Source of the DNA: Planctomycetota bacterium
GTDB lineage: Bacteria > Planctomycetota > Planctomycetia > Pirellulales > Pirellulaceae
Direction of reading: 5' to 3'
Assembly: GCA_014381825.1 (NCBI GenBank)
Contig: JACNKX010000064.1
Location: forward strand, 1 to 60,456
Length of the DNA: 60,456 nt
Positions 1,515 through 56,693 of the stretch are shown in pieces; within the stretch, counting starts at the first letter, position 1; each line of letters opens with the position of its first letter. The position numbers and the translations under genes were made by a program. Under the pieces are notes generated by a model, which worked only from the letters and a program-made list of their open reading frames with translations, did not search any database and was not told where the DNA came from.

Positions 1515-1524
1515 GGAACAGGCT

Positions 1525-2574: not shown

Positions 2575-2575
2575 C

Positions 2576-4060
2576 TCAATCGTTGTGTGGCGTGTGATTC
2601 GGATTGAGCAGCTTCAGCAAGATCGCTCGCAACTGCCGCACTTTCAGTGGCATGGGCAGCAGTTTGCGGTGTTCAGCGGTCGCGGCGCGTGTCCCAAAGT
2701 CCTGATGCTTTTCGGCGATAAACAGCACGGCGGAAATGTCCTTTGTATCTTCATTCTCGCCGAACGAATTGAAGGCGTCGAGTGCTTCCTCGCCCATTTC
2801 CGTCGTGCAAAAGACAACGCACTCCGCCGGCGGATCACCACCAGCTGCGAACCGGTCTAACGCCCGCTGTGCGTCGCCGACAACCAATACGCGATAGCCA
2901 CGTCGCTTCAACAGATCACGCAACGCATCCTGCATCTCGATATTCGACTCGACGATCATCACGCTGTGGCCTTGGCCTTCGCGTTCCAGTAGCTTTTTAC
3001 TGCGTTCCGCACCTTCCGCTTCGTCCCTCTCGTCGCCCTTTTCGAGCCGCCGAAGTACGTCCTGCAAGCCCAACAAAAAGTCACCTGGTGTGGAATAACG
3101 TTTTTCAGGGTCCAGCTCCATCGCTTTGTTAATAACGGAAACGAGCGACCCAGGGAGGTCTGTCTCGTGAACCGTGATCGCGGTGATTTCGCGAAAACGC
3201 GCAACGCTCAGTCGTTGTGAGCGGTCTCGCGTTTCTGATAAGGGCGGGACGCCCGTCAAAATGTGGTAGAGCATGCATCCGGCAAAGAAGATATCACTCT
3301 GCGGATGATCCTTTTTGACACCCGTGATGCGTTCCAGTCCAGCGTAGTCAATACTGCGGGCACTCGTAACTTTGTCGCCGTCCTTCTCTTTGCCTGTCGC
3401 GGCGATTGCGGCAAGTCCGAAGTCGACGAGTTTGGCGCGACCAGAGCTTGTTAGCAAGATATTAGAGAGTTTCAAGTCACGATGAGTTACGCCCTTTCCA
3501 ATCGCAAACTCCAAGCCTGAGACGACATCTGCAATCAGCTTTACGGATTCAATTGGAGTGAACTTCTTGCGGACCTTCAAGATCTCTCGCAGGTTGTCTC
3601 CCTCGACGAACTCCATCACCATGTACTTGCGATGTCGTTCTGTCCCGACGTCGTAAACGGGAACGATATTCGGGTGTCGCAACTCCATGACCATCTTGGC
3701 TTCGCGCAGGAACTGTTCTTGCTGCGAGATGTCGTTCAGAAAACGATTGCGGAGTACTTTGACCGCGGCCACGCTTTCTTTGTCGACGTGAACCGCACGA
3801 TAGACTCGCGCGAACGTACCGGCGCCGACTAAGTATTGCAGTTTGTACTTGCCATAGAAGAAGCCCGTCCTTTCGCCTCGCAAAATTCGTTCGATTTGCA
3901 GATTGGTCAGCAAGCCTTTCCGTAGCATCGCTGACGTCATGTCGTCAAGCGACACATCGCGCGAACCCAGTGTACTCCATACGGCTTCGATTTGTGGATT
4001 ATCGAGCAGAGCGAGATCGAACACGCGTTGCGCAAACTTCTCAGCACTCCAATCAGACAT
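2576..4060 (-). CDS. Ser/Thr protein kinase with a degenerate C-terminal receiver domain
   Basis: A 494-aa cytoplasmic Hanks-type kinase without a transmembrane segment. Residues 1-70 form a helical N-terminal region. The kinase domain covers about 72-335: glycine loop GAGTFARVY at 79-87, ATP-binding Lys101, catalytic HRDLKLSN at 193-200 and DFG at 213-215, so it looks active. A charged linker follows. The last 130 residues have the length and hydrophobic pattern of a response-regulator receiver (SVMIVESN...GYRVLVV...ECVVFC), but the acidic pair is ES, the phospho-acceptor position in VVFCTTEM has no Asp, and the conserved Lys near the end is absent (LLPMPLK). It is therefore likely a pseudo-receiver used for binding. 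Confidence 0.88.
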   Translation of the reverse strand: MSDWSAEKFAQRVFDLALLDNPQIEAVWSTLGSRDVSLDDMTSAMLRKGLLTNLQIERILRGERTGFFYGKYKLQYLVGAGTFARVYRAVHVDKESVAAVKVLRNRFLNDISQQEQFLREAKMVMELRHPNIVPVYDVGTERHRKYMVMEFVEGDNLREILKVRKKFTPIESVKLIADVVSGLEFAIGKGVTHRDLKLSNILLTSSGRAKLVDFGLAAIAATGKEKDGDKVTSARSIDYAGLERITGVKKDHPQSDIFFAGCMLYHILTGVPPLSETRDRSQRLSVARFREITAITVHETDLPGSLVSVINKAMELDPEKRYSTPGDFLLGLQDVLRRLEKGDERDEAEGAERSKKLLEREGQGHSVMIVESNIEMQDALRDLLKRRGYRVLVVGDAQRALDRFAAGGDPPAECVVFCTTEMGEEALDAFNSFGENEDTKDISAVLFIAEKHQDFGTRAATAEHRKLLPMPLKVRQLRAILLKLLNPNHTPHND

Positions 4061-4227
4061 TAGCGATTTGCCTTCCTCTGTTCGTCCGCGACGTCACTCG
4101 CGACGAGTGGACATCGGCATCCGAATGATGCTCGATGAACTGTTCCATGACGTGATGATGAATTGATTCATGGTATTCGACATTCGCCAGACTCGCAATC
4201 TAGCAAAATGTTGCGTTGCACCACGAC

Positions 4228-4260
4228 AAAACTCCGGCTCGAAAGGGAGAGCCGGAGTTT
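4228..4260 (-). terminator. Rho-independent terminator
   Basis: A perfect 12-bp inverted repeat (4229-4240 and 4249-4260) with an 8-base loop, followed on the minus strand by TTTT. It sits just downstream of the small minus-strand gene ending at 4296 and should end its transcript before the kinase gene. Confidence 0.7.
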
Positions 4261-4295
4261 CGTGGGAGGGGTAACGTAGGGTTTCTCGGAGCGAG

Positions 4296-4595
4296 CTATT
4301 CGTCGCCGCGATTGGTGCCTTCTTCCAGCTCTTGGCGAGCTTCGTCCCGCTCGCGCCGTGTGGCTTCGAGATCGAAGACGAGGTATTTCATGTCTAGCCG
4401 TAATTGTGCAAGAGCGTCTTGTACGAGGTTTAGAATACGGCGGCGGCGTTTTGTGCTTTCCGACACTCGGCTAAGGACAGGCTCGATCATCGTCCGGTGC
4501 TCGGCCGGCAAAGCGGCGATCAATCCGGCGAGTTCAATCATGTCGGCAGGGAGTTCCTCGGTGTTGCTCTTATTCAGTCGCGGTGCGGTGCTCAT
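4296..4595 (-). CDS. small coiled-coil protein of unknown function
   Basis: A 99-aa cytoplasmic protein. The ATG at 4595 is preferred over longer forms because GGAG lies 8-11 bases upstream of it and the region before it lacks protein-like composition. The first half contains a hydrophobic helix (ELAGLIAALPAEHR). The second half is a charged amphipathic helix (LVFDLEATRRERDEARQEL), a likely coiled coil, with a basic KRRRR cluster in the middle. It is followed by a good terminator. I do not recognise a family; DNA- or protein-binding is possible. Confidence 0.7.
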   Translation of the reverse strand: MSTAPRLNKSNTEELPADMIELAGLIAALPAEHRTMIEPVLSRVSESTKRRRRILNLVQDALAQLRLDMKYLVFDLEATRRERDEARQELEEGTNRGDE

Positions 4596-4782
4596 GTCGA
4601 TGTCTCCGTGGTTGCGTTGTGTTGGGTTATGAAAGCACCCGTCGTGCCAACGGTCGTAACCCGCGACCCCAGAAACGCAACTCTTCTGAAAATAACATGT
4701 TACGTGGATCGACTGCAAATCGCCGGAAAAGTCGACGTTGAAAATACGCAACACCATTGGCCTATTCGCTGGTCGCAAATCC

Positions 4783-4820
4783 TGATATAAGCACGCCTTA
4801 CGCCAAAAACATGGCGTGCT
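4783..4820 (+). promoter_or_regulatory. candidate extended -10 promoter and leader hairpin
   Basis: TGATATAAG at 4783-4791 fits an extended -10 box, with no clear -35. Immediately after it an 8-bp inverted repeat (4790-4797 and 4813-4820, 15-base loop) would fold in the leader. It lies about 100 bp ahead of the start at 4891. Promoter assignment in planctomycetes from consensus alone is weak. Confidence 0.3.
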
Positions 4821-4890
4821 GCATTCGATGTGGCGTCGCGTAAACATATCTTTTCTTCCAGTGTTGCCCCCTGGCTACGGCGTTGCCGAA

Positions 4891-7524
4891 ATGAAACAGT
4901 CGCCCCGGTTGCTGTCTTTCGCTTGTGCGCTGTTCGCTGCGCTTTTGGCGACTCACGGAGTGGCCGTACAAGAGCGATTCGAGTCTCCAGAAGTCTCGTG
5001 GCGGTTAGCAGAATCTGATGGTTCAGTTCGATTGCTGCATCACGAGCGAGACTTTACGGTCTCCCGTACCGGACAAGGATCGGAACACGTTCGCGTTTGG
5101 AGCACGCAAGCGACATACGTCTACTTGGCCCACCCCGTTTCGCCGGCGCGAATCATTGACGAGTTGCTTCCCAGCTTATGGGTCAAGGCGGATCGGCCTG
5201 GCTCGCGGCTGATGATGCGAGTTGTCTTGCCGAGGGCGAAAGATCGCGACGGCAAGACACTGACCGTCCTACTCGAAGGCGACTTCTATACACAAGCAGG
5301 CGCGTGGCAGCGTCTTCAAATGCGTGACCTGAAGAAACTGTTCGAGGCGGAAGTCCGTATCCGCCGTCTGCAACTTGGTTTGGTAGATGACCATGAAGCA
5401 TACATTGACCACGTTGTGCTCAACGCCTACAGCGGCCCAGGCGTTACCGAGCTGTGGACAGATGATCTCGAGTTGGCCGGTTATGCATCTTCACCGCGCG
5501 TGGCGACACCAGTTGGCCTCACGGGAGCGGTTGGAATTGCAGCGTCAGAGCCCGATGCTGTTCAGCTCGCGAATCGTTCTGCAGAACTGCAAGGATCAGT
5601 CCTTTTGGTCGATGATCGCCCGTACTTTGTGCGAGCCATCGAACACAACGGCGAACCGTTTTCTTGGTTAAAGCACGTTGGCTTCAATACCGTTCTGCTT
5701 CGCAGCCCGCCAAGTGCTGCGGAACTGTCCGAGTCCGAGGAAGCTGGTGTCTGGCTAGTTGCTCCGCCACCGATCACCAACGGCGTGCTAGACTTGTCGG
5801 CTGCGCATCGTCGAGTCATTGCATGGCGACTTGGGGCAAGTGCAAACGCCATGGAGTTGACGGCGATTAGCAATTTCGCCGCGCAAGTGCGGCGTCAAGA
5901 TCGTGAGCAGGCACGACCGATTGTGTGTGATCTTGCGCGTGACGTTGACCGATTTGTTGACGTCGGCGACGTGTTGATGTTCTCCAAGCCGATCGTTGGG
6001 ACGAGCTTTGATCTGCGACACTACGGTGATTGGCTGAAACAACAAATTCGCCCCTTGGTTGGAAAGCCGTTTTGGGGAACCATCCAGACCGAGCCTTCTT
6101 CGCGAATGGTGGAGCAGCTCGGGATCGCGAGCGCCACGTCTGCAGCAATTCCTTCACAGGCCTCGAAACCTCCGAAGCTCTGTGCCGATCCCGATCAAAT
6201 CCGACTGTTGGCGTTTGAAACGGTCGCTGCTGGCGCACGAGGCGTCTGCTTTCGCTCGCGCTCTCGTCTTGATCTCGACGATGACGTTGCCAAGTTGCGT
6301 AGCGCGAGCCTGCAGCTGATCAACTCGGAACTCGCCCTGATCGAACCGTGGGCAGCGGGAGGTTCAGTCGCGGAAGAGATCGACTTGCACGATCCGAATA
6401 CACGAGGAAACATGTTGGAGACAGATCGTTCGCGTCTGCTCGTGATTACGCGACACGAGTCGGGACAGCAGTACGTTCCTCGCCCACATCGCACGGAACC
6501 GATTTCGTTCGTTGCTCACGCCGTGCCTATTACCGATCAAGCCTATCATCTCGGCTCAAACGGCTTGCAACCCTTGCTGCGTTCACACACGAGTGGCCCG
6601 AGGATCACGATTCGTGAAGCTGATTCCGTTTCGCTCGTTTTGTTGACTCAAGATCCTCTCGCGATCAACCGTTCAACACGTGAACTGTCGGAGAGCCGTG
6701 AACGAAACGCGACGCTGCGTCAGCAGATCGCATCGATTCAGTTGCGCCAGACGATGGATGTCGTCGGCAAGCTGGGTCCTAACGAATCAGCCAATCGAAT
6801 CCTGGTCGAGTCGCGTGCGATGCTCGACCGAGCAGAGCAACTGCTGCGTGGCGGCGACTCACGCGATGCGATGGTCGCGACTCGCGCAGCACAGGAATTG
6901 ATTCGTCGCGTGCAACGTGAAACCTGGGAGGAAGCTGTGCTGGCGTTTCCATCACCAGCGTCGAGTCTTCTTTGCGCGAGCTTCGCAACGCTGCCGCTTC
7001 ACGCTGAAGCCACCAACCGTTTAGCAACCGCAAGATGGGGAAACAACGCGTTGCAAGCGGGTGACTGCGAAAGTCTCGATGCGATGCTGCGCAGCGGTTG
7101 GCGTCAGCACGCGCCCGATGTCGGTGCCCAGAACACGTTTGTAGAGTTGTCACTCGAAGATCCGGCAGGCGGCCGGTCGGCGCTTCATCTGGCGTCACGT
7201 CAATCGCCGACGAACATTGCCGCCAGTCGCGGGTTGCCGCTATCGATCACGAGCGCTCCCGTCATGATAGAAGCCGGGCATAGCTTTAGGATTCACGGCT
7301 GGGTGAAAGTACCGGAGGCAATCTCCGGCGGTAATGATGGTTTTATGGTCTACGATTCAGTCACTGGCGAAGAGCTTGCCGAACGAATCACGCAAACGAA
7401 TGGGTGGCGAGAATTCACGCTCTACCGCATCGCGACACACAGTGGCGAGCTGATGCTCACGTTTGCATTGACGGGTTTTGGAGAAGCTTGGCTCGACGAG
7501 GTGTCGGTGGCGATCTTGAAGTAG
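4891..7524 (+). CDS. large secreted protein of unknown function
   Basis: An 877-aa protein. The ATG at 4891 is chosen because it begins a typical Sec signal peptide (MKQSPRLLSFACALFAALLA, then small residues before VAVQE); an open frame extends back to 4816 but would bury the signal. The first 200 residues look like a beta-sandwich carbohydrate-binding region. The middle (from about residue 245, VDDRPYFVRAIEHNGEPFSWL) resembles the opening of glycoside-hydrolase TIM barrels. A helical segment and a further beta-rich domain (about 750-877) close it. The overall layout suggests an extracytoplasmic carbohydrate-active or binding protein, but no catalytic residues can be assigned. Confidence 0.75.
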   Translation: MKQSPRLLSFACALFAALLATHGVAVQERFESPEVSWRLAESDGSVRLLHHERDFTVSRTGQGSEHVRVWSTQATYVYLAHPVSPARIIDELLPSLWVKADRPGSRLMMRVVLPRAKDRDGKTLTVLLEGDFYTQAGAWQRLQMRDLKKLFEAEVRIRRLQLGLVDDHEAYIDHVVLNAYSGPGVTELWTDDLELAGYASSPRVATPVGLTGAVGIAASEPDAVQLANRSAELQGSVLLVDDRPYFVRAIEHNGEPFSWLKHVGFNTVLLRSPPSAAELSESEEAGVWLVAPPPITNGVLDLSAAHRRVIAWRLGASANAMELTAISNFAAQVRRQDREQARPIVCDLARDVDRFVDVGDVLMFSKPIVGTSFDLRHYGDWLKQQIRPLVGKPFWGTIQTEPSSRMVEQLGIASATSAAIPSQASKPPKLCADPDQIRLLAFETVAAGARGVCFRSRSRLDLDDDVAKLRSASLQLINSELALIEPWAAGGSVAEEIDLHDPNTRGNMLETDRSRLLVITRHESGQQYVPRPHRTEPISFVAHAVPITDQAYHLGSNGLQPLLRSHTSGPRITIREADSVSLVLLTQDPLAINRSTRELSESRERNATLRQQIASIQLRQTMDVVGKLGPNESANRILVESRAMLDRAEQLLRGGDSRDAMVATRAAQELIRRVQRETWEEAVLAFPSPASSLLCASFATLPLHAEATNRLATARWGNNALQAGDCESLDAMLRSGWRQHAPDVGAQNTFVELSLEDPAGGRSALHLASRQSPTNIAASRGLPLSITSAPVMIEAGHSFRIHGWVKVPEAISGGNDGFMVYDSVTGEELAERITQTNGWREFTLYRIATHSGELMLTFALTGFGEAWLDEVSVAILK

Positions 7525-7663
7525 AGCAGTCCATCGTACTCAGCCTTCAACTGTGTTTGGAAATAGAGCATCGTCCGCGTTGCTTCGAGTGAGTGCGACA
7601 CTCCGAAAAGTCGCTACAATGCTCTCGTTGCCCCAGACGTAAAAAACATTGGTGCGATTCACT

Positions 7664-8251
7664 ATGGGCTCTCTCTCAGTAACCTTCGTATTGGTCATTT
7701 CCGCTCTCGTTGCAGTTCTGCTGCTGGTCATATTTGTGGTGCTACTGTTCGTCCTGCGGCGTGGACCAGCACTGCCGGAACCGAAACCGATCGATTTGAA
7801 GATCGACGTTGCTTCGCTTAATCCAAGCGGGCCGTCGATCGAGGTTCCACTGTTGACCTACTCGGGCAAGCCGGTGCGGCTTGCCGCGCTGGTCGTCGCG
7901 CCGGTGGGTCGATCCGGAGCGATTCCTGAGGCGGATCGACTTCTCGATGCGGTCGATCAACTGATCCCGGGCTTGGTTGAAGTAATCTCGACCGACGATC
8001 CGATGGTCAAGTTCTGGCCAGGACAGTTGAGTACCCACGGATTTGCGCATGTATTCTTCCGCAACGTGAAGCTGCCCGGCGCACGTGGTGTTGGAACGCC
8101 GTGGTGTAGTGTCGCAGGGAAGTTCAAGGCCGGTGGACAACAGTACTTGGCGGGCATGCTCTGCAACGCTGGCGGACTGACCGAATTGAGTGAAATCGCT
8201 GTTGATGACAATGAACAATGGGCGCGGATATTGGAAGTCAGGAGAGCGTAG
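7664..8251 (+). CDS. membrane-anchored protein of unknown function
   Basis: A 195-aa protein counted from the ATG at 7664 (a TTG at 7649 is an in-frame alternative). One strong N-terminal transmembrane segment (FVLVISALVAVLLLVIFVVL) is followed by RR and a soluble domain of about 160 residues, which is beta-rich and contains a single HVFFRNVKLPG-like strand pair. It would sit as a signal-anchored protein, orientation uncertain. Its stop is 3 bp before the GTG of the glycerate kinase gene, so they form an operon, although a functional link is not apparent. No family recognised. Confidence 0.75.
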   Translation: MGSLSVTFVLVISALVAVLLLVIFVVLLFVLRRGPALPEPKPIDLKIDVASLNPSGPSIEVPLLTYSGKPVRLAALVVAPVGRSGAIPEADRLLDAVDQLIPGLVEVISTDDPMVKFWPGQLSTHGFAHVFFRNVKLPGARGVGTPWCSVAGKFKAGGQQYLAGMLCNAGGLTELSEIAVDDNEQWARILEVRRA

Positions 8252-8254
8252 CAG

Positions 8255-9640
8255 GTGCAACGAGGTCAACAGCAACTCCGCGAAGACGCTCTTGCAATTT
8301 GGAATGCCGGAGTCGATGCCGTCGATAGCGAACGGCTGATACGAGAGAATGTTCGAATCGACGGCGAGTATCTTGTTGTTGGCGACGAGATGTTACGTCT
8401 CGCGGATATTGAACGCATCGCCGTCGTCGGTGCGGGAAAGGCGGGCGCCGGCATGGCTGCTGGAATGGAATATTCGCTTGCCGAAATGGCCGTTGCTAAA
8501 CAGCTGTCCGGTTGGGTCAACGTCCCCGAAGATTGCGTGCGAACTCTGGACCACATCACGTTGCACGGCGCGCGACCAGCCGGAGTGAACGAACCAACGG
8601 AAGCTGGCGTCTTCGGTGCGCGACGCATTTTGGAGATCGTTGGCTCACTCGGACCGAATGACCTTTGCTTTTGTCTGATTTCGGGTGGTGGCTCCGCCTT
8701 ACTCCCGGCACCCGTCGATGCCATCACCCTCGCTGATAAGCAAGCGGTGACGAAGCACTTGAGTGGAGCGGGCGCTAACATCGAGCAGCTCAATACGGTT
8801 CGCAAACAACTCAGTCGTATCAAAGGTGGTGGGCTCGCGCGAGCTTGCGGCGCGGGGCGTTTGGTGACCTTGATCATTTCCGACGTGATCGGTGATCCGT
8901 TGGATGTCATCGCGTCTGGACCTACGATTCATGACAGTAGGACGCCGCAAGACGCTCTCGATGTTCTTAATCGATTTCACGCTCGCGAGGCGGGAATCTC
9001 TGCGTCAGTATTCAACTACCTACGACAATCCGCATCGCAAGACCGTTCTACGAATCCGGCTTTCGCTTGCGACATTCAAAACCTCGTCATCGGCAACAAC
9101 GCTGCCGCAGTCGATGCCGCCGGGATCGAAGCCGAACGCCGTGGCTACTCCCACGCGATGACCGCATCCACAACACTCGAAGGAGCCGCCGAAGACATCG
9201 GGTGCCACTTGGCGGACATGGCGATGCGAATGCGGGATGAGCCTGGGCCTGACTGCTTGATCACCGGCGGCGAACCGATCGTTCAACTTGTTGATGCTGC
9301 CGAACGAGGCAAGGGTGGCCGGAATCAACAACTTGTTCTCGCCGCGCTAATACACATACTCAAGCACAGTTCCGACGTTGATGCCGCTCTTCGAGGTATC
9401 GCGCTTCTTTCAGGTGGCACGGATGGTGAGGATGGTCCCACGGATGCCGCCGGTGCGTTCATCGACGAAGGTCTGGTCGCAGCGTTCCGAGACCAGCAAC
9501 TCGATCCGGCAAACTACTTGCAACGCTGCGACGCCTACCACTTCTTCGAACAAGTTAGCGCGCTGATCAAGACCGGACCAACGCATACCAACGTTTGTGA
9601 TCTGCGCGTCGTCACCGTCTCGCAGTCAGGGACTGCGTGA
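8255..9640 (+). CDS. glycerate 2-kinase (type II, MOFRL domain)
   Basis: A 461-aa protein of the DUF4147/MOFRL family, which phosphorylates D-glycerate to 2-phosphoglycerate in the cytoplasm. Visible features are the N-terminal glycine-rich loop VVGAGKAGAGMA (residues about 60-71), the central SGGGSALLPAP segment, the nucleotide-region stretch LIISDVIGDPLDVIASGPT, and the C-terminal MOFRL signature (LSGGTDGEDGPTDAAGAF). Length matches the family. The start is the GTG at 8255, 3 bp after the preceding stop. It would connect glyoxylate, serine or sugar-acid breakdown to glycolysis. No partner gene for glycerate production is adjacent. Confidence 0.92.
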   Translation: MQRGQQQLREDALAIWNAGVDAVDSERLIRENVRIDGEYLVVGDEMLRLADIERIAVVGAGKAGAGMAAGMEYSLAEMAVAKQLSGWVNVPEDCVRTLDHITLHGARPAGVNEPTEAGVFGARRILEIVGSLGPNDLCFCLISGGGSALLPAPVDAITLADKQAVTKHLSGAGANIEQLNTVRKQLSRIKGGGLARACGAGRLVTLIISDVIGDPLDVIASGPTIHDSRTPQDALDVLNRFHAREAGISASVFNYLRQSASQDRSTNPAFACDIQNLVIGNNAAAVDAAGIEAERRGYSHAMTASTTLEGAAEDIGCHLADMAMRMRDEPGPDCLITGGEPIVQLVDAAERGKGGRNQQLVLAALIHILKHSSDVDAALRGIALLSGGTDGEDGPTDAAGAFIDEGLVAAFRDQQLDPANYLQRCDAYHFFEQVSALIKTGPTHTNVCDLRVVTVSQSGTA

Positions 9641-10100
9641 AGCGAACCGTCGCGACATTAGGGGATGCGGAAGCGAGTTGACTCTTCGAGTGGCAAGCAG
9701 TGTGTCCATGCTGGCACTGATGTTGCCACAAAGTGATTGGGGTAGGTGGTGGTCCGATGGCCGCGAGGTGCGACTCCAAGTCTTCCCAAGTGAGGATGAT
9801 GAGCAGCCCTTGGTACCCTAACCACGGTCACCTTCGATAGCAGCCGGCACCTTGGCGACCTAGACGACGCAGGTGTTGCCGTCATGTGCGCGCAAGCGTT
9901 TTGGCCTAAGTAGCACAGGTCGCGATACATGAGCACGTCCGAGTCAGAGGCTAGGTCACCGGATGTCCAATCGGCACGTCGTTGCCGCGACCAGGTGATC
10001 GTTTCCGGAAACGCAGGCGAGGACTTTGTGCGCGGCCTCGTTGAAGCAAGTCGGCAACGTTGCTGCCGCACACTGGTTGCCTGAAGAACGATGTTACGAC
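9641..10100. other. 460-bp gap without a convincing gene
   Basis: Open frames here (for example the minus frame at 9658-10071) are rich in Arg, Ser and Thr and lack a plausible start or hydrophobic pattern. Nothing else is seen. The block separates the plus-strand glycerate kinase from the end of the minus-strand FG-GAP gene. Confidence 0.5.
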
Positions 10101-47310: not shown

Positions 47311-48597
47311 ATGTCGATGAACTTTTCTATTTGCAAATCTGCGATCGCAGGGCTTTCTGCTTGTTTGGCATTCGCGTCGTTCGACGCGACAGCACTTGGG
47401 CAAACGGTCTATCCGGCCTATCGAGTTCACTACCGGACCGTTAATGAAGAGCGAACGGTCTATCGGCCCAGTTATGAAACCATCTACGAGCAGCAAACGA
47501 TCACTAGCCAGAAGCCTGTCTGGGAGACCGAAACGCGAATGCGTCGCTACACGGTGGCCAAGCCGGTTAATGAAACGTCGACTCAAATGAATCGCTATAC
47601 GGTTCGCAAAGCTGTTTGGGATACAGAAAATCGAACTCAGCGACGTGTTGTCCGACGGCCTGTCACCGAACAGGTGATGCAGAATCGAAGTCACGTTGTT
47701 TACGATCCGGTAACGACCATGCAAACGCAATACGTTGACCAAGGATCGTACGTCGACAACTATGTGCTGATGCCAGGCGTTTCGCGTAATCGACTTCAGT
47801 GGCTGCAAGGCGGCTATGTCCAAGATCCAGCGACGGGCACGATGGTTTATCAACGTGGCGGTATCCATTGGGTTCCGACGGCACCGCCCGCGACCTATCA
47901 AGTCCAGCGACAGTACGTCCCGAATGTTGTCGCTCAGCAAGTCCCCCAAACGACTTATCAACAACGTGTCGTCAATGAGCAAGTTCCGATTAACGTAACG
48001 CGTTACGAGGACACCGTTGTCGAAGAACCGTACCAAGTCCAAGTTTGCAAGTACGTGGACGAAATCGTCGAACAGCCGGTTCAGATTACGACACAGCGCG
48101 TTGAGTACGAAACGAAGGAAGAGCCAGTCCGAGTTCGCGTTTGCAAATGGGTCACAGACACTAAGACAGTTCAGGTGCCTCGCACCGTGATGAAGTGGGT
48201 GCAAGAGAAACAGATTGTTCCGCGAACAGTGGTTGAGCGAGTGCCGATTAACACTTGTTCGCCTTGCAGTACTTACAGCACGTCGCGCGTGACTTACTCC
48301 GCCCCCGCGACTGCCTTGCCATCAGTTGTCGCCTCTTCTGCCGCTCCAACGACGACGAATCGCGTGGAGGCAAAGACTCCTGAACCTCCTGCGGAAGCAA
48401 CTGGTGAGGAGCAGGCAGAAGCAGACTCGGGTACAGGCGAAGTTGAGGCAGCAAATGATGAGACGCCGACTGGTGATCCGGAATTGAAGCAAGGCGAGGC
48501 CCGCATTGTTCCGATTCCTGACATGGGACGTGGTCGACGGGGCTTGGAGGCCGGTGACGATCATGTCGCCGACGCTGGCGACAATTCGACGGCTTAG
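47311..48597 (+). CDS. secreted YTV-repeat protein
   Basis: A 428-aa exported protein. The ATG at 47311 begins a signal peptide (MNFSICKSAIAGLSACLAFA, cleavage near ALGQ). The mature part is a series of imperfect repeats of about 15-20 residues of the form YTVxKPVxETxxxx (RTVNEERTVYRPSYETIYEQQ, RYTVAKPVNETSTQ, RYTVRKAVWDTENR, VQVPRTVMKWVQEKQ), with a Gly-rich insert around LPGVSR/MVYQRGG. The tail is acidic and low complexity (PEPPAEATGEEQAEADSG). YTV-type domains are known from planctomycete cell-surface proteins. It is likely an envelope structural protein. Confidence 0.82.
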   Translation: MSMNFSICKSAIAGLSACLAFASFDATALGQTVYPAYRVHYRTVNEERTVYRPSYETIYEQQTITSQKPVWETETRMRRYTVAKPVNETSTQMNRYTVRKAVWDTENRTQRRVVRRPVTEQVMQNRSHVVYDPVTTMQTQYVDQGSYVDNYVLMPGVSRNRLQWLQGGYVQDPATGTMVYQRGGIHWVPTAPPATYQVQRQYVPNVVAQQVPQTTYQQRVVNEQVPINVTRYEDTVVEEPYQVQVCKYVDEIVEQPVQITTQRVEYETKEEPVRVRVCKWVTDTKTVQVPRTVMKWVQEKQIVPRTVVERVPINTCSPCSTYSTSRVTYSAPATALPSVVASSAAPTTTNRVEAKTPEPPAEATGEEQAEADSGTGEVEAANDETPTGDPELKQGEARIVPIPDMGRGRRGLEAGDDHVADAGDNSTA

Positions 48598-48621
48598 CGC
48601 GAAGCAACCTCTTCGAAACAC

Positions 48622-48653
48622 AAACGCGAGCTCCTGCTTGCGTTTTCTTTTGC
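48622..48653 (+). terminator. Rho-independent terminator
   Basis: AAACGCGAG (48622-48630) and CTTGCGTTT (48637-48645) pair with one mismatch around CTCCTG and are followed by TTCTTTT. It lies 25 bp after the YTV-protein stop. Confidence 0.65.
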
Positions 48654-48753
48654 GCTATCTTCGTAAACGCCGCCGCCAGCTAATTGACACGGCCAGCTTG
48701 GACCGCAACACTGACATTCGTCATTCGGTACTCGCCACCTTCAGGCCGCTCTC

Positions 48754-49959
48754 ATGTCTTCGGTCCTCAACAATGAAAGTCCCGCGTTGCAAGGCAAACG
48801 TGTCGCGTTCGTTGGCAAGCTAGGTGGTGTTAATCGCCGTGAAGCCCAGCAGCTCGTGCGCGATCAAGGCGGTGTTTCGGTTGCTAAATGTTCTGCGGAA
48901 GTTGACTTGATCGTGATCGGTGCCGACGAGTTGCCGCTGGCGGAGGATGGCGAGTTACTTGATGCCGAAATTCGTGATGCGGCAGGCGACGGACGGTTGG
49001 AGATCATCTCGGAAACGCAGTTCTGGCAACGGCTCGGGATTGTGGAGGCCGAACAGCATGTACGGCGTCTCTACACGCCCGCGATGCTCGCCGATCTGCT
49101 GGGCGTTACTGTTTCGATCGTGCGACGATGGCATCGACGAGGATTGATCGTTCCTGCGCGCGAAGTCCAACGACTGCCATACTTTGATTTTCAAGAGATC
49201 GCGACGGCACAGCGGCTTGCGCAGCTCTTGGCTGCTGGTGCATCACCCGCCGCGATTGAAGCCAAACTTGCCGCCTTATCGCGTTACGTCCCCGATGTTG
49301 ATCGCCCGATCGCCCAGCTGTCGGTGATCGTCGAAGGAAAGCAGCTCCTGCTTCGTCAGGGAGAAGGCTTGGTCGAGCCCGGCGGCCAATTGCGAATCGA
49401 CTTCGACGCGTTAGAGGCCTACGCGGAGGAGATGTCCGACGAATCGGAAGGCTCGTCCGACCAAGTGACTTTGTTGTTAGCCAGTCATCTCGCCGAAGCG
49501 TCCGAACCCACGACGCCTGAGGAAATGGTTGAAGCCGCGATCACGTACGAAGACGACGGCCATCTTGAATCGGCCGTCGAGATGTATCGCGCGGCGCTTA
49601 CAGCCGGTGGCGCGCGACCTGAGGTGTGTTTCCATCTTGCCGAGTTGCTCTATTTGCTTGGCGATATCTCCGCGGCTCGAGAACGTTACTTCATGGCGAT
49701 CGAGCTAGACGAGAACTTTGTCGAGGCACGCGCGAACCTTGGTTGCGTATTAGCGGAAACTGGCGAGTTAGAGTTGGCCGTCGCCGCCTTCCAAGGCACT
49801 CTGGCTCACCATCGTGATTATCCCGATGTGCATTATCATCTCGCGCGAACGCTCGACGAACTGGAACGCCCAGAGGAAGCCGATATCCACTGGCTCGAAT
49901 TCCTCAAGCTGGCCCCCGACAGTCCGTGGGCCGATGAAGCTCGCGATCGCTTGCAGTAG
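48754..49959 (+). CDS. BRCT-MerR-TPR fusion protein
   Basis: A 401-aa cytoplasmic protein with three parts. Residues about 12-95 form a BRCT domain (LQGKRVAFVGKLGGVNRREAQQLVRDQGG...VDLIVIG) like those of NAD-dependent ligases. Residues about 108-175 form a MerR-type winged helix (YTPAMLADLLGVTVSIVRRWHRRGLIVPAREVQRLPYFDFQEIATAQRL). Residues about 250-400 are TPR repeats (AAITYEDDGHLESAVEMYRAAL, VCFHLAELLYLLGDISAARERYFMAIEL, and so on). DNA-binding with protein-interaction domains suggests a regulator, but no ligand site is evident. The STAS gene follows after 51 bp on the same strand. Confidence 0.87.
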   Translation: MSSVLNNESPALQGKRVAFVGKLGGVNRREAQQLVRDQGGVSVAKCSAEVDLIVIGADELPLAEDGELLDAEIRDAAGDGRLEIISETQFWQRLGIVEAEQHVRRLYTPAMLADLLGVTVSIVRRWHRRGLIVPAREVQRLPYFDFQEIATAQRLAQLLAAGASPAAIEAKLAALSRYVPDVDRPIAQLSVIVEGKQLLLRQGEGLVEPGGQLRIDFDALEAYAEEMSDESEGSSDQVTLLLASHLAEASEPTTPEEMVEAAITYEDDGHLESAVEMYRAALTAGGARPEVCFHLAELLYLLGDISAARERYFMAIELDENFVEARANLGCVLAETGELELAVAAFQGTLAHHRDYPDVHYHLARTLDELERPEEADIHWLEFLKLAPDSPWADEARDRLQ

Positions 49960-50010
49960 TTAGCGCTGACCGTGCGTCCAGCAACGTGGTGTCACTTGAG
50001 GAGCATTTCG

Positions 50011-50346
50011 ATGTGGATCAAGGTCAAACTTGTTGACAGCGTTGTTTGCGCCAACTTTACTTCGTCGAAGATCCTCGATGAAGACGCGATCCAGCAAGCT
50101 GGTGTCGAGCTAATGCGTCTCGTCGAGAGAGCGTCTGAAACCAAAAAGCTGTTACTCAGCTTTGAGGGCGTGCAATTCATGTCATTGGGGATGATCGGCA
50201 AGTTGGTCTTGCTGAACAAGAAGGCAAAGACCCAAGGCGTACAACTGAAGTTCTGTGACATCAGTCCCAACGTCCTCGAAGTCTTCAAGATCGCTCGGTT
50301 GCGCTGCACATTCCCAAACGACAACAATGTCGACGAAGATGATTAG
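50011..50346 (+). CDS. STAS-domain protein
   Basis: A 111-aa protein with an anti-sigma-factor-antagonist type STAS fold. The ATG at 50011 has GAGGAG about 10 bases upstream. The core is VCANFTSSKILDED...ETKKLLLSFEGVQFMSLGMIGKLVLLNKKAKTQGVQLKFCDISPNVLEVFKI. At the usual DSSG phosphorylation loop the sequence is FMSLGMIG, so the standard Ser acceptor is not conserved. The protein ends DEDD at TAG 50344-50346, but the same frame continues for 39 codons with a strongly acidic start (KEDGDDEDEG) to a TAA at 50464. The stop may therefore truncate an acidic tail. Confidence 0.85.
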   Translation: MWIKVKLVDSVVCANFTSSKILDEDAIQQAGVELMRLVERASETKKLLLSFEGVQFMSLGMIGKLVLLNKKAKTQGVQLKFCDISPNVLEVFKIARLRCTFPNDNNVDEDD

Positions 50347-50470
50347 AAAGAGGACGGTGATGACGAGGACGAAGGTCGCGGCAACGCCGGGGTCTTCGCC
50401 AAGCCCCCCGAGCATCCAGGTTCCGGCGGTACACATGCAAAACCGCCATGCGACAACCGTTCGTAAATGG

Positions 50471-51061
50471 TTACGGGCTTTGACTGCGAATGAACGTCAC
50501 GGTCCAATCAACAGTCTGCAATTCCGCCGCGAGATGAGTTTCCGTCACGGGAACCCAGTAAAAATTGCTACCTCCGCCTTCCGGGAGAGACACACCGGCA
50601 GAGACAACTTTGTTCTTGGTGATGTTTACATTGGAGGGAGCGGTGATTGGTGTGATCGTTGGAAGTGCAGGACCCGTGCCAGTTTGAGCAAAGATTAGAT
50701 GCCATCCGATCCAAGGAATCGGAAACGATGTCCAGGGATTGTTCAAAGGAACAGGAAAATTGTGCCACTGATTGAGGTTACTCATCCTCGGCACACGGAC
50801 CCACGCTAATGGCGGCCCGGCTTTCTGATCTGCCGCATATTCAGCTTGTGCTACGACCGAAGGCACTTCCAGACATGGCCACGGTGTCGGCCCTGTAATA
50901 TCGCAGTAGCAGTTCTCTCCGCAGTCGACGCACATATTCTCGTCGGGGTAACAAAAGCCCCCACATCCGGCCGAGGAAGAACTCGAACTTGATGATGAAC
51001 TGCTTGATGAACTGCTTGATGAACTGGAACTGGAACTGGAAGAGGAACTAGAACTACTCAT
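50471..51061 (-). CDS. Cys-containing protein with a 29-serine N-terminal tract
   Basis: A 196-aa protein. After the initial Met come 29 consecutive serines encoded by all six Ser codons, so the tract is kept at protein level rather than made by simple slippage. A Cys-rich segment follows (AGCGGFCYPDENMCVDCGENCYC), then a beta-rich part of about 130 residues with many Pro and Trp (NQWHNFPVPLNNPWTSFPIPWIGWHLIFAQ). There is no signal peptide in front of the serines. I recognise no family. The gene is downstream of the kinase/FGE pair on the same strand. Confidence 0.72.
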   Translation of the reverse strand: MSSSSSSSSSSSSSSSSSSSSSSSSSSSSSAGCGGFCYPDENMCVDCGENCYCDITGPTPWPCLEVPSVVAQAEYAADQKAGPPLAWVRVPRMSNLNQWHNFPVPLNNPWTSFPIPWIGWHLIFAQTGTGPALPTITPITAPSNVNITKNKVVSAGVSLPEGGGSNFYWVPVTETHLAAELQTVDWTVTFIRSQSP

Positions 51062-51176
51062 GAGTTACCTCGTTGCGATGGAGCTTTACTGAACGAAACA
51101 ATTCCCTAATAATTGGAGTACTAGTCTACCTGGCTTCCCTATGTCACGCAACTTTCACCGTTAAAACGCCAGACGG

Positions 51177-52394
51177 CTAATCCTCGATGCGTCTGACAAC
51201 TCGAAATCCTTGCAAGCGACCGAGGCCTTGTGGATCGGCCGGGCCCGTTGTGGACGAGTCCATTTCGTCGGCCACGCGAAAGCAACTCTCGCCACGAGTC
51301 ACATACCGATTCGCCGTGGAGTTTTCGATACAAGGTTCTGCGACGTTCCCATACATATCGAATAGGCCGAATGCATTTGGAAGCAATTTGCCAACGGGAT
51401 TAATCAAAGAATCCGACGTCTTCTTATGCCAGCCGTAGTAGTTCATGAGCCGAACATTCTCGCCGAAGAAACGTGAAGTCGTTGATCCAGCGCGGCATGC
51501 GTACTCCCACTCGAAACTCAACGGAAGCCGATAGCCACTCTTGGTTTCGAATCCACTTACTGGATAACAGTTCTTCACGGTAATTTCGGAATCCGGAGGA
51601 TAGCACCACTCTTCTTCTCGAATGCCTTCCTTGCGACTTAGCCAGTTGCAATACTTCGCGGCTCGAAAGATCAGAACACCTGCAGCAGGAACGTTGTGGT
51701 TTGTAACTTGGTAAGTTTCGTCTTGAGCGTGATCAGGATTGAATGTTCGAAAGCTATCAAGTCGAACTTCGGTACTAGAAATTGCAAAATCGTAGGATAG
51801 TTCTGGCGGGGCTGTGTAGCCATCAACGCGAAAGCAGTGCGGTCGCAGCACGACCATTGTTTGTCGCGAATCGTTGACATACCAATCGCGCGAAGCATCA
51901 AACTCTTGCTTGGTGAGGTCACCTTCATCAGCCACTACTTCATGTCCGAGATTTCGTAGCAACAGTCCCGAGACCGAATGCGATTCAGCGTCTGGATCGT
52001 CACGATGAATCTCTCTCAGACGTTGGGTCAATCGGTCCTGTAAAGTCGAACTCAACGGTACACCGGTATGGTGCCAAGCTGCTAGTAGCGCTACGTTTCG
52101 CATCGCACCGTCTTCGTGACCTTCAAGGATTAAGGGAAGAAATGTGGTCAAATCAATCCGATCCGGATGCATTGCATGTACGACATAAGTGCGGAGCCGC
52201 GGATCGGTCGCGAGCTTGGATGCGTCGCTCAGTAACACTCGGTCACCTAACTCGAAGCTCGCTACGATCAAGTTCGCCTGCCGTTGGCGATGCGCATCGA
52301 GCTGGGAATCTTCCGGTTCTAGCGCATTCAATTCCGAGAGTTTATTCTGAATGAGAGACAAAGAGTTCTGCGGATCGACCTGGAGTTGTTCCAC
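51177..52394 (-). CDS. HEAT-FGE (SUMF1-like) protein, probably the C-terminal part of the adjacent kinase
   Basis: A 405-aa frame counted from GTG 52394. Residues about 1-165 are helical repeats (RLRTYVVHAMHPDRIDLTTFLPLILEGHEDGAMRNVALLAAW). The WYVNDSRQTMVVL strand then starts an FGE/SUMF1-type domain with RAAKYCNWLSRKEG, GYRLPLSFEWEYACRAGS and GLFDMYGNVAEP, ending GFRVVRRIED. The paired catalytic Cys of true formylglycine enzymes is not evident. The frame is in phase with the upstream kinase frame and separated from it by one TAG plus four codons, and it begins in the middle of a repeat region, so it is most likely the end of one original protein. Confidence 0.8.
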   Translation of the reverse strand: MEQLQVDPQNSLSLIQNKLSELNALEPEDSQLDAHRQRQANLIVASFELGDRVLLSDASKLATDPRLRTYVVHAMHPDRIDLTTFLPLILEGHEDGAMRNVALLAAWHHTGVPLSSTLQDRLTQRLREIHRDDPDAESHSVSGLLLRNLGHEVVADEGDLTKQEFDASRDWYVNDSRQTMVVLRPHCFRVDGYTAPPELSYDFAISSTEVRLDSFRTFNPDHAQDETYQVTNHNVPAAGVLIFRAAKYCNWLSRKEGIREEEWCYPPDSEITVKNCYPVSGFETKSGYRLPLSFEWEYACRAGSTTSRFFGENVRLMNYYGWHKKTSDSLINPVGKLLPNAFGLFDMYGNVAEPCIENSTANRYVTRGESCFRVADEMDSSTTGPADPQGLGRLQGFRVVRRIED

Positions 52395-52406
52395 AATCGC
52401 TCGATA

Positions 52407-55400
52407 CTACGGTGCCTCGGCAACGACCAATCCCTCGACCAGCGCCGTTGTTCCGCCGGCGTCTAATTCGGACAGAAACAACGCACCAATCCGGGCCCTT
52501 TCAAGCGTCTCGGCCTTCGATAGATGGGCGAGTACTGAGTCCCTCAGTTGGTCCGATACGGGCTCCAACGCCTCGATCCACATCATCGAGAAAGCCGCTT
52601 GTTCGCGAAGCAAGGACCCCGCAACTTCGTCGCAGAATACGCTCCACGTCTCGGCCGAGTCGTCGAATGCCGCGAGTGCACAAGCGACGCGGAAACGTCC
52701 GCGAGGGGGCAGTTGTTCGTCTGCAAGCTTCTGCCGGAGGTGATCATCGATCCCATCGGGACGTGTTGCGAGCGCATTCCGGACGACACGAAAATCACGA
52801 GGTGGAAGTTGCATCTTCGTCAGTTCATCAGATAACCACATGACGTGTTGATCCGTCGCCGGAAGAGAAGCGATCGCGGCGCGGATTCGCGTCCGCTCCG
52901 ATTGCGATACGTCGGCAGCAATGTCGGTCACGAGCGGATCGATCCATTCTCGATAAGAAGACATTTCTTCGACGACGCGGGGCACGTCCTCGATATTAAC
53001 ATCACCCAACTTACTAACGAGAACAGCCGCTTCGCTTACCTTTTGGCGTCGATCGGCCTGCCGCAAGATGCCGGCCGAAATCAATGAACCGATCAGCAAC
53101 ACCAAGCACAAAACGCCAGCTCGGCGAAGCAATCTTTGACCCGCGGCTTGCATCATCTTGCGCTGTGGCGATGTCCACTCGCGACGATTTGTCTGGAGCC
53201 GCAACCCGATCCATTCCAGTGGCGAAGGTAGCAAACGGTGCGACGGTCGGTTATTCCATAACTCGGCTTGCTCCTGCAGCAACAGCCGGGCGCGTCCACG
53301 CCGAGTTCCTCGCAACTGGCAGTCCAACCACTCGCGGATCGAGGGAACGAGGAAGTCGTGTGTGAGTTGATATATCGGCTCGGAGACTGCTGTGTGCTTC
53401 GACGTGCTGTCAGACGTTTCATGTTGTGTTTCGTCATCCGGCGATCGTGCGGGCGTGAGTAGCCGAAGGTCGACATCCAGCAGATGCAACAGCTCGTCGA
53501 AGTCCTTCGGATGCGAAGAGTAGTGTGAAGCCGAAAGCAACTCGGATCGCGTCCGTGCTGCATCTTTAATGTTGCCGACTCGCGGCAGTAACGCTGCCAA
53601 AACGCCCCTCGCCGCCTGTTCGTGCCCACGTCGCGCGGGACGCGCGCGCGAGCCAACACTGTTTTCTAGATACGCGACTCCGACGCCTTCGGTCCCGCCC
53701 ATCTCGTCCAGCGTCGCTGGTGTCCATTCGCGATCCTTAACCATTTCCACAAACACCGTCAGACGAACCGGGTACAACCGATTGTCTTCGGCCAATTCTG
53801 TGATCGCCCGCGTCATGAAAGCTGTTTGTTCCGCCGTTTGTTCCGCCGCGTTTTCGGGCAACCGCTTGTAGGCCACACCAAGCTCGCGGAGCACAGATCG
53901 GGCGTGCTCGGGATCAAACGAATCAACAAGCATTGCGTTGGTTCCGTCGACGATTCCAAGTTCCAGCTGTCGCATGAAGCGACTGACCGGTAGCCAGAAG
54001 TCATCACGAACCATCAATACGCATTGTACATTTCCGCCGTCGCACTGACGAAGCGCACGAACGAGTTCGGCGTCAGCTCCCGTCTGCCATTGGTGTAGCC
54101 ACTGCTCAAACTGATCAAGGATCACCACAATCTTTTGACCGGATCGCAACTCGCCGTTCTCGCGCAACTCGCCGATCGATTCCGCAAGCTCCAGCCCCTT
54201 CGATAGCCCTTTGAACTTGCGGCGGAGCAGCCGTAGTACTCTTGCTTCCGTATCGACGGCGGTCGCATCGACATGCAGCGTGCAAACATCGGTGGTCAGC
54301 CGCGGAATCACCCCCGCCTTAATCAAAGATGATTTACCGCAGCCGGAAGGTCCGTATAGCAAGCCAACATTGAATGTTTCGTCTGGCTCGCGTTCTTCGA
54401 TACAGCTTTTCCAGAAGCGAACCGGTGTCGGCAGGCCGTCTCGGTCACGAGGCCCAGGGATCAGCTTCAGGAAGAAATCGCGATCCTGTTCCGTAAACGA
54501 ACGCAGACCGCGCGGGATCACCGGCGCGTCCGGCGGTTCAATGTGACCAGTGCGACGTCGCAACGAAGAGCCTGATCCGCCGGTGGTGAACCTAATCCAT
54601 TCGCTCAGTTCGTCCGCCAGTTCGTGGGCCGTTCGGTAACGCCCTGACATCTGTTGCGATAAACACCGAAAACAGATCCGTTCCAACTCACTAGGAATGG
54701 TCGAATCAATCTGGCGTGGTGGAGTTGGTTCAGCGTAAAGGATCTGCTGAAACACCTCTTGAACGGTCGAACCAGTAAACGGAAGTCGTCTTGTTAGGAT
54801 GCGATAGAATACGACTCCGAGTGCCCACAAATCGGTGCGACCGTCAATTCGATGGTTCTCGCCGCGAGCTTGCTCGGGCGACATGTAATGCGTCGTCCCG
54901 ACGACGTTGTCGGAAACGCTAACTTGGTCGCGATGTCGAACCGCCAGTCCAAAATCGGCGATGTGCGGGCGATCGTCTGTATCGAGAAGTATATTCTGTG
55001 GCTTGACGTCTCGGTGAACGAAGCCTTGCTCGTGAGCATGGGCCAGAGCCTCGGCGATATCGGCAATGAGTTGTGCCGCGGCCAGGGAGGACAGCGATTC
55101 GTGTTCAAGTAAATGCGCCAAGGAGCGACCGCGAATGTACTCTAGAACTATAAACGGCGTGTCGCCTTCGCTGCCGACATCGAAGACCGTCACAATGCCG
55201 GGATGCTGTAGTCGGGCGGCCGTACGCGCTTCCTCGATGAAAGCTCCTAACTGGGCATCGTCTTGAAATCGGTCGCGTCGCGGTAGTTTTAATGCGATCT
55301 GCCGATCGAGTTGCTCGTCGTGAGCCAGCAAGACATCCGCAAAGCCGCCACGTCCGACTCGCCCTCGGACCACATATCGTCCCAGGTGACTGGGCAGCGG

Positions 55401-55496
55401 TGGCGCGGAGTTTTCGCCGCGAGGAGTCGAGTCGCGCGAGTAACCCTGCGTCGCGTCGAGAACGTTCTTTGAATCGTCAGGCGTGTGAGCAGTCAT
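52407..55496 (-). CDS. Ser/Thr protein kinase with nSTAND ATPase domain (interrupted)
   Basis: A 1029-aa protein from ATG 55496 (ATG 55538 is an alternative). The kinase domain (about 41-300) has GRGGFADV, Lys70, HRDVKPQN at 161-168 and DFG at 181-183. An nSTAND-type P-loop ATPase follows: LLYGPSGCGKSSLIKAGVIPRL (P-loop 382-390), KIVVILDQFEQWL (Walker B) and YQLTHDFLVPSIREWL near its end. One transmembrane helix (VLCLVLLIGSLISAGI) and HEAT-like helices complete it. It ends at TAG 52407-52409; the same frame continues into the FGE domain. The whole would be a membrane-bound kinase-STAND-HEAT-FGE receptor of about 1440 aa. Confidence 0.85.
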   Translation of the reverse strand: MTAHTPDDSKNVLDATQGYSRDSTPRGENSAPPLPSHLGRYVVRGRVGRGGFADVLLAHDEQLDRQIALKLPRRDRFQDDAQLGAFIEEARTAARLQHPGIVTVFDVGSEGDTPFIVLEYIRGRSLAHLLEHESLSSLAAAQLIADIAEALAHAHEQGFVHRDVKPQNILLDTDDRPHIADFGLAVRHRDQVSVSDNVVGTTHYMSPEQARGENHRIDGRTDLWALGVVFYRILTRRLPFTGSTVQEVFQQILYAEPTPPRQIDSTIPSELERICFRCLSQQMSGRYRTAHELADELSEWIRFTTGGSGSSLRRRTGHIEPPDAPVIPRGLRSFTEQDRDFFLKLIPGPRDRDGLPTPVRFWKSCIEEREPDETFNVGLLYGPSGCGKSSLIKAGVIPRLTTDVCTLHVDATAVDTEARVLRLLRRKFKGLSKGLELAESIGELRENGELRSGQKIVVILDQFEQWLHQWQTGADAELVRALRQCDGGNVQCVLMVRDDFWLPVSRFMRQLELGIVDGTNAMLVDSFDPEHARSVLRELGVAYKRLPENAAEQTAEQTAFMTRAITELAEDNRLYPVRLTVFVEMVKDREWTPATLDEMGGTEGVGVAYLENSVGSRARPARRGHEQAARGVLAALLPRVGNIKDAARTRSELLSASHYSSHPKDFDELLHLLDVDLRLLTPARSPDDETQHETSDSTSKHTAVSEPIYQLTHDFLVPSIREWLDCQLRGTRRGRARLLLQEQAELWNNRPSHRLLPSPLEWIGLRLQTNRREWTSPQRKMMQAAGQRLLRRAGVLCLVLLIGSLISAGILRQADRRQKVSEAAVLVSKLGDVNIEDVPRVVEEMSSYREWIDPLVTDIAADVSQSERTRIRAAIASLPATDQHVMWLSDELTKMQLPPRDFRVVRNALATRPDGIDDHLRQKLADEQLPPRGRFRVACALAAFDDSAETWSVFCDEVAGSLLREQAAFSMMWIEALEPVSDQLRDSVLAHLSKAETLERARIGALFLSELDAGGTTALVEGLVVAEAP

Positions 55497-55580
55497 GAAT
55501 AGCAGGAACTGTTTGAGATTGCACTTCGACTCAATCATAATATCAACTCTCGACGCAGGCTGCTTCAGCCATGGTCGAGA

Positions 55581-56693
55581 ATGCGCAGTAAGTTTCCTAC
55601 AACTTCCAGGTGTTTGATCTTCGTGGCAGTACAAGCGGCACAATTCCCGAAACAGGCCCCCCTTTCACCGGCGATCGATAAACTGTGCGTGATTGGCCAT
55701 CCAAGTCGTCTGGGCGGCGCTGATACCGAACTCGATCACCAAATCCGCTGCTGGCAGGAAATGGGAATCAAAGTTCACATTTGCCACACGACGTCACTCG
55801 ATCAAAATGCCCAAGCGATGCAAATGGAGCAACGCGGCTGCATCTATCACGACGCTTGCGATTGGAAGTCGCTTGAAGGCTTGCATTGCATTTCATTTTG
55901 CAATGGCGAGTTCCTTAGCCAATTACCCGAGATTCGTCGGTATGCGCGTTCGACTTCGTTCGTGAATTGCATGACATGGAATTTCGATCGTGAACTCGAA
56001 ATGCAAGAGCGCGGCGTGATCGACTTTCATCTTTACCAGACCGAACACGCTTTCGAACGGGTCAGCGAGAATCTGAAGGGACTCGGCGTGTACCGACCAC
56101 TCCACTTCGTTCCTTACTTCCACACCGAGGACTTTCCGTTTCACGACAACAGGCCGAAAGATAAGTTTCGGTTTGGGAGAATTTCGCGCGGCGACGCGGA
56201 TAAGTTTGGAGACCGTCAGCTTTGGATTTACGAAACGATGACCGCACCAGTCCTCAAGGAAGGATTGATCGTTGGCTGGGACGACCGAGCTAGAAAGCGG
56301 TTTGGTCGCGAGCCAGATTCGTATATTCGGACCGTTGCCGAAGGCGGTATTTCGCAGCAGGAGTTCTATCGACACTGCGAAGCGATCATTATGACAACGG
56401 AGACTTACGAGAACTTGCCTCGCGTCGGATTCGAGGCGATGTCATCTGGTTCGATTTTAGTAGTTGACAATCGCGGCGGGTGGCCACGTCAAATCGAAGA
56501 CGGTGTCACGGGTTGGCTGTGTGCCGACGATCGCGAGTTCGTTTACAAGGCGTCGCGATGTGCATTTGAGCGTGAAGAACGCGACGCGATGCGGCGGAAG
56601 GCGAGGGAGAGACTCAGTCGAAAATGGGGGCTAGCCGCGTCCGCATGTTCCTGGGAAGCGGTGTTTGATGCGTGGCAAACGCACTCACCTTAG
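55581..56693 (+). CDS. glycosyltransferase (GT4-like)
   Basis: A 370-aa GT-B type enzyme. The N-terminal domain starts at KLCVIGHPSRLGGADTELDHQIRCWQEMG, a normal opening for family-1/4 transferases. The C-terminal domain has YENLPRVGFEAMSSGSILVVDNRGGWPRQIEDGVTGWL, the conserved donor-binding E-x7-E type region. Residues before about 35 add little, so the true start may be later; ATG 55581 is the only good candidate. It diverges from the kinase gene and precedes another transferase by 51 bp. The pair probably builds a surface polysaccharide or glycosylates a surface protein. Confidence 0.82.
   Translation: MRSKFPTTSRCLIFVAVQAAQFPKQAPLSPAIDKLCVIGHPSRLGGADTELDHQIRCWQEMGIKVHICHTTSLDQNAQAMQMEQRGCIYHDACDWKSLEGLHCISFCNGEFLSQLPEIRRYARSTSFVNCMTWNFDRELEMQERGVIDFHLYQTEHAFERVSENLKGLGVYRPLHFVPYFHTEDFPFHDNRPKDKFRFGRISRGDADKFGDRQLWIYETMTAPVLKEGLIVGWDDRARKRFGREPDSYIRTVAEGGISQQEFYRHCEAIIMTTETYENLPRVGFEAMSSGSILVVDNRGGWPRQIEDGVTGWLCADDREFVYKASRCAFEREERDAMRRKARERLSRKWGLAASACSWEAVFDAWQTHSP

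Follow-up and report, generated by a model that had tools for sequence, protein, structure and literature searches.

How should a gene be read when one in-frame stop codon divides an otherwise continuous multidomain protein? The question is raised by a planctomycete draft genome (9.69 Mb, 238 contigs), in which the window, the whole stretch of DNA analysed here (contig C132, 60,456 bases), carries a long minus-strand gene with the following features:

51177..55496, minus strand: the whole interrupted gene, 1439 codons plus a terminal stop, aligning end to end with an intact orthologue (L086:10619-14956)
54624..55376, minus strand: Ser/Thr protein kinase domain, aa 41-291 (Pfam Pkinase, E 3.1e-49)
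53247..54392, minus strand: nSTAND1 NTPase, aa 369-750 (Pfam nSTAND1, E 2.5e-20)
53064..53120, minus strand: predicted membrane segment, aa 793-811 (highest mean Kyte-Doolittle value of the protein, 2.53)
52407..52409, minus strand: in-frame TAG, codon 1030 (sense residue in 24 of 27 relatives, of which 15 carry Gln)
52392..52394, minus strand: GTG, codon 1035, the first possible re-initiation codon, five codons past the TAG and without a Shine-Dalgarno-like match
51192..51719, minus strand: FGE-sulfatase / C-type-lectin-like domain, aa 1260-1435 (Pfam FGE-sulfatase, E 1.7e-19)

The original prediction held that a kinase/nSTAND frame is ended by TAG 52407-52409, that GTG 52394 follows without a change of frame, and that one protein with exactly one amber codon is the simplest reading. 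Translation of the frame from 55496 to 51177 bears out the first two statements, as the TAG is the sole internal stop and the GTG is codon 1035 of the same register. Pkinase, nSTAND1 and FGE-sulfatase all lie along this one register, as they do in relatives, with the TAG between them, and FGE-sulfatase occupies residues 230-405 of the 409-aa piece downstream of the stop. The kinase/FGE pair is the only pair of same-frame neighbours in the window with at least 400 codons each; at a threshold of 300 codons there are three such pairs, of which the one at 18995 represents adjacent genes with their own starts and the third lies at 38896. The segment at aa 793-811 is the only strong hydrophobic segment of the gene and lies before the stop, and the strongest hydrophobic segment of the orthologue is found at the same place (mean Kyte-Doolittle 2.38). 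Judging from its sequence, the stretch from this segment to the FGE domain is probably helical; the HEAT label originally given to it was not confirmed, with no HEAT family returned by Pfam at E 0.001. Based on this domain content and on published readings of STAND-FGE proteins, we infer a membrane-anchored receptor with the FGE end as its sensor. PADLOC gave 34 matches to the first piece, the 25 shown all falling in the kinase and one of them (C3a189) extending to residue 396, and none to the tail piece; these matches do not make the window gene a defence system.

Does the frame across the stop belong to one gene? In G002, a genome of the same genus, the receptor is a single uninterrupted frame of 1445 aa, and the gene order is shared with the window: a MerR-TPR gene, a poly-Ser protein gene, the receptor and two glycosyltransferase-like genes. 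The two receptors align from end to end without frame breaks, the window stop facing an Arg of the orthologue. Protein identity is highest in the kinase (0.88), falls to 0.79 across the nSTAND region and to 0.47 between aa 790 and the stop, and is 0.37 and 0.40 past it. This full-length alignment, with identity on both sides of the stop, rules out a chance open frame, and the intact syntenic orthologue supports the single-protein reading with its one amber codon. In G001, the third genome of the genus, the neighbouring glycosyltransferase-like gene is unmatched at E 1e-60, and the receptor finds no more than paralogue-level matches (best 36% and 49%); the receptor locus seems to be absent from G001 or missing from its draft.

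A wider alignment, comprising the read-through window gene and 27 relatives drawn from 37 with equal nSTAND-FGE spacing, shows what stood at codon 1030. The stop column holds a residue in 24 of the relatives and a gap in three; the residue is Gln in 15, and Arg, Asp, Tyr, Thr, Gly, Ala, Ser, His and Glu occur once each. Aligning intact homologues across the stop, as had been proposed as a check, thus finds a sense codon there, and the alignment indicates that the ancestral state of the column is a sense residue.

Could the ancestral arrangement nevertheless have been two genes? A search of 199 family genomes for the tail matched 66 of them at E 1e-25, and 80 loci were surveyed, first listed places with an open frame below ~1450 aa and then some longer ones (L054 was left out and L181 was dropped as a duplicate of L118). 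Five loci were cut by a contig edge, leaving 75 usable. Kinase and FGE domain share one frame in 66 of these, sit in separate same-strand frames in five (the window, L114, L122, L126 and L129), and a complete kinase is missing from the FGE frame in four (L118, which begins 58 bases into its contig, L131, L157 and L176); the broken share is biased upwards because short frames are over-represented in the sample, and errors in draft assemblies may contribute to it. A two-gene ancestral state is rejected on the basis of the 66 fused loci, and no relatives with the architecture of the window gene were seen as two genes with independent starts, the arrangement that the original prediction had named as contrary to it. 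Some members of the family are themselves broken, which fits a nonsense allele in the window: the kinase-nSTAND-FGE gene of L126 (G043:C663:22000-31000, at 633-7328 on the plus strand) contains two TAA codons in frame and keeps its frame throughout, and L122 and L129 are interrupted by frame changes, part of the nSTAND region of L129 also being missing or scattered. As a separate observation, L117 (G112:C9:250000-262000) carries at 3067-10046 on the plus strand a kinase-nSTAND-FGE gene followed directly by a separate 431-aa frame with an FGE domain.

What, then, does the stop represent? Among the options that the original prediction listed, a nonsense mutation fits best, given the intact orthologue, the sense residues in relatives and the lack of any typed CUA tRNA. 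We consider it likely that codon 1030 was recently mutated to a nonsense codon, leaving a kinase-NTPase without its sensor as an early pseudogene; the stop is known from one assembly only, and the single amber codon is real if that assembly is right. The gene would encode, or would lately have encoded, a kinase and an nSTAND NTPase, a membrane segment, a probably helical region and an FGE/C-type-lectin-like sensor. The mutation would end translation between the membrane segment and the FGE domain, and the likely product would be a 1029-aa kinase-NTPase that keeps the membrane segment and loses most of the sensor part. Such a product would be uncoupled from its signal or non-functional, hence the designation as an early pseudogene.

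The state of the sequence past the stop bears on this reading. Estimates of dN/dS were unusable because of synonymous saturation past the stop (neither NG86 nor YN00 returned a value, and the maximum-likelihood dS of 14.7-17.3 is meaningless), and for this reason counts of conserved columns and of polarised sites were used instead. With conserved columns defined on 26 relatives, leaving out the window and the G002 orthologue, 16 columns past the stop reach 90% conservation, of which the window keeps all and the orthologue 15; of the 54 that reach 75%, the window keeps 45 and the orthologue 40. In the stretch preceding the stop (812-1029), the corresponding values for window and orthologue are 1/3 versus 2/3 at the 90% level and 8/13 versus 9/13 at the 75% level. 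Sites polarised by the majority residue are derived in the window at 25 positions past the stop and 13 before it, as compared with 35 and eight in the orthologue. No relaxed selection past the stop is therefore seen, since the tail is no more derived than that of the orthologue and retains every one of the most conserved columns. Moreover, taking the nonsense fraction of substitutions as 0.039, the 409 tail codons, which contain no second stop, would be expected to have gained one (P<0.05 for none) once neutral divergence exceeds 0.062 substitutions per site. The low identity of the tail might itself be taken as decay, but this was rejected because the amino-acid drop starts before the stop and synonymous sites change too. 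We read the lack of relaxed selection as recency of the stop; the point against the nonsense allele is that an undecayed tail fits a still-translated tail equally well, which leaves two options, a recent stop or a tail that continues to be produced.

Where does the low identity come from? Comparison with G002 places the tail within a diverged block of ~2.6 kb that contains the receptor tail, the poly-Ser gene and a STAS gene:

49962..52559, no strand assigned: block in which the syntenic G002 locus shows no nucleotide similarity, its inner edge near aa 980 (third-position support interval aa 972-1034)
50471..51061, minus strand: poly-Ser protein gene adjoining the receptor; the G002 counterpart is 40% identical at the aa level and shares 23 of 74 codons
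49972..50346, plus strand: STAS-domain gene (Pfam STAS, E 3.3e-8), without a tblastn match in the G002 locus

By blastn the two genomes are 75% identical from 52854 to 56683 and 74% identical from 48016 to 49961, and between these flanks only a 43-base piece at 52651-52693 is matched. The genes beside the block are normal in this comparison (identity 0.91 for the MerR-TPR gene, 0.83 and 0.77 for the glycosyltransferase-like genes). At identical amino acids, the share of identical codons between window and G002 is 0.48 up to aa ~980 and 0.27 after it, with chance at ~0.35; none of 1000 shuffles reaches the observed change, whose position is loosely bounded (support interval aa 873-1102). When all aligned codons are compared at their third positions, which are also affected by amino-acid divergence, the same breakpoint at aa 980 is obtained with the narrower interval. 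The stop at codon 1030 is near the block edge; no causal link between the two can be claimed.

Among 13 pairs with nSTAND identity of at least 0.75, window and G002 rank last both in FGE identity (0.39; next 0.46) and in FGE codon sharing (0.24; next 0.40), and in quick trees the distance between them is 0.25 in nSTAND and 2.5 in FGE. The best reading of these data suggests that the block is a sensor cassette exchanged with a diverged relative of the same type, the FGE domains of window and G002 still falling in one clade of five in the quick tree. A rival explanation is very fast local evolution. The pattern is not unique to this pair, as L190 dips similarly with L189 and L183 (0.31 and 0.32) over the earlier half of the middle region. 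A comparison of a same-genus trio gave no lasting drop. The window lineage is the likelier recipient because third-position GC in its tail (0.50) is below that of its own upstream regions (0.61 overall before the stop, 0.56-0.62 by region) and of G002 (0.63 after the stop position, 0.62-0.66 before it); the fall is strongest at aa 1081-1320 and not at the block edge. In L172, a related receptor is followed by an open frame (7752-8702, plus strand) that at its end looks, by eye, similar to the poly-Ser protein; the poly-Ser gene may thus be a partner conserved alongside the receptor.

Explanations other than a recent nonsense allele must also account for the undecayed tail, which counts in favor of each of the following three. 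Sequence error, re-initiation and readthrough are possible, with no positive support for any of them. A sequencing or assembly error would mean that the organism has a sense codon at 52407-52409 and that its gene is intact. The assembly is a draft in 238 contigs and nothing specific argues against an error, but lone substitution errors are uncommon in assemblies with good coverage, and we judge this explanation unlikely.

Equally doubtful is the production of two polypeptides through a restart at GTG 52394 or later, which would yield a separate helical-FGE subunit. The GTG is in frame just past the stop, and a precedent of sorts exists in L114, whose helical-FGE frame has a possible start of its own, an ATG just past the stop of the preceding frame, and its own hydrophobic segment; L114 differs from the window in that its preceding frame is a different, WD40-like kinase, cut at another border. 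The original prediction had pointed to the lack of a ribosome site, and indeed no match of at least 4 bases to AAGGAGGT is found within 20 bases of GTG 52394; as evidence, however, the argument carries no weight because the main ATG at 55496 has none either. Against re-initiation, the orthologue residue facing the GTG is Leu and not a start-type Val or Met. Furthermore, the restarted piece would contain no membrane segment, because the sole strong one precedes the stop, and could therefore not get outside the membrane, if the sensor does sit there.

A more elaborate hypothesis treats the amber codon as a tolerated or selected switch, whereby mostly sensor-less kinase-NTPase is made together with a little sensor through leaky readthrough or re-initiation, and lineages swap, as one unit, the sensor cassette that starts shortly before the stop. 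We hold this to be quite improbable.

Leaky or programmed readthrough of the TAG, giving some full-length protein, is very improbable, even though in-frame stops under purifying selection are described as widespread in bacteria (PMC7918605). The stop is absent from the one orthologue, and the decoding apparatus offers no help. A genome search with the Rfam tRNA model, in which 150 of 271 first-look candidates were scored and a very odd tRNA could be missed, gave 67 matches; none of the 65 typed by ARAGORN has a CTA anticodon, and the untyped match C31:4637-4706 contains no CTA when read by eye. The untyped tRNA-like sequence G000:C52:8855-8918 has a loop, CCACUAA, that contains CUA, but it finds no support as an amber suppressor, for in the register of the covariance model its anticodon is ACU and the preceding base is C, not U. 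PylS has no match in the genome, and the prfA model matches two long frames (422.3 bits against a cut-off of 423.25, and 255.5 bits), indicating that a release-factor gene close to this model is present. Suppression by a CUA-anticodon tRNA, for which a genome search had been suggested, and pyrrolysine decoding are accordingly without support. The tRNA-like sequence itself accompanies an array in L087 (G000:C52:6001-16000, about 2855-6817) of 20 typed tRNA genes in less than 4 kb, including an unusual Cys tRNA with anticodon ACA.

As a broken gene, the locus is ordinary and serves as a caution that stops or frame changes at times disrupt kinase/STAND/FGE genes. The exchanged-looking 2.6-kb cassette is the sharper lead, as it suggests that such receptors, like immune-type ones, may replace the sensor end and conserve the signalling end. 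A literature search recognised no paper on the window gene itself. According to PMC10907252, STAND-FGE/C-type-lectin proteins are putative antigen sensors, some of them DGR-diversified, and they share with the window gene an nSTAND1 NTPase and a C-terminal FGE domain of strongly varying sequence; the window gene differs from the diversified ones in that its 3' end has no template repeat in the genome. Genome-wide, the last 441 bases have no matches apart from themselves and three short stretches of 37, 36 and 43 bases, so a DGR origin of the variable 3' end is rejected; four RVT_1 matches occur in the genome, none on the window's contig. The in-frame-stop genes of PMC7918605 likewise have a single stop and a conserved remainder, whereas they are under purifying selection and the window stop is known from one genome only. 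Also close are the planctomycete kinase/FGE fusion proteins, one match on an Aquisphaera giovannonii plasmid (NZ_CP042998.1) being annotated 'bifunctional serine/threonine-protein kinase/formylglycine-generating ...'. Like the window gene, these have a kinase, a long middle region and a C-terminal FGE-type domain, with nSTAND in many relatives; the window gene differs in being split by one TAG.
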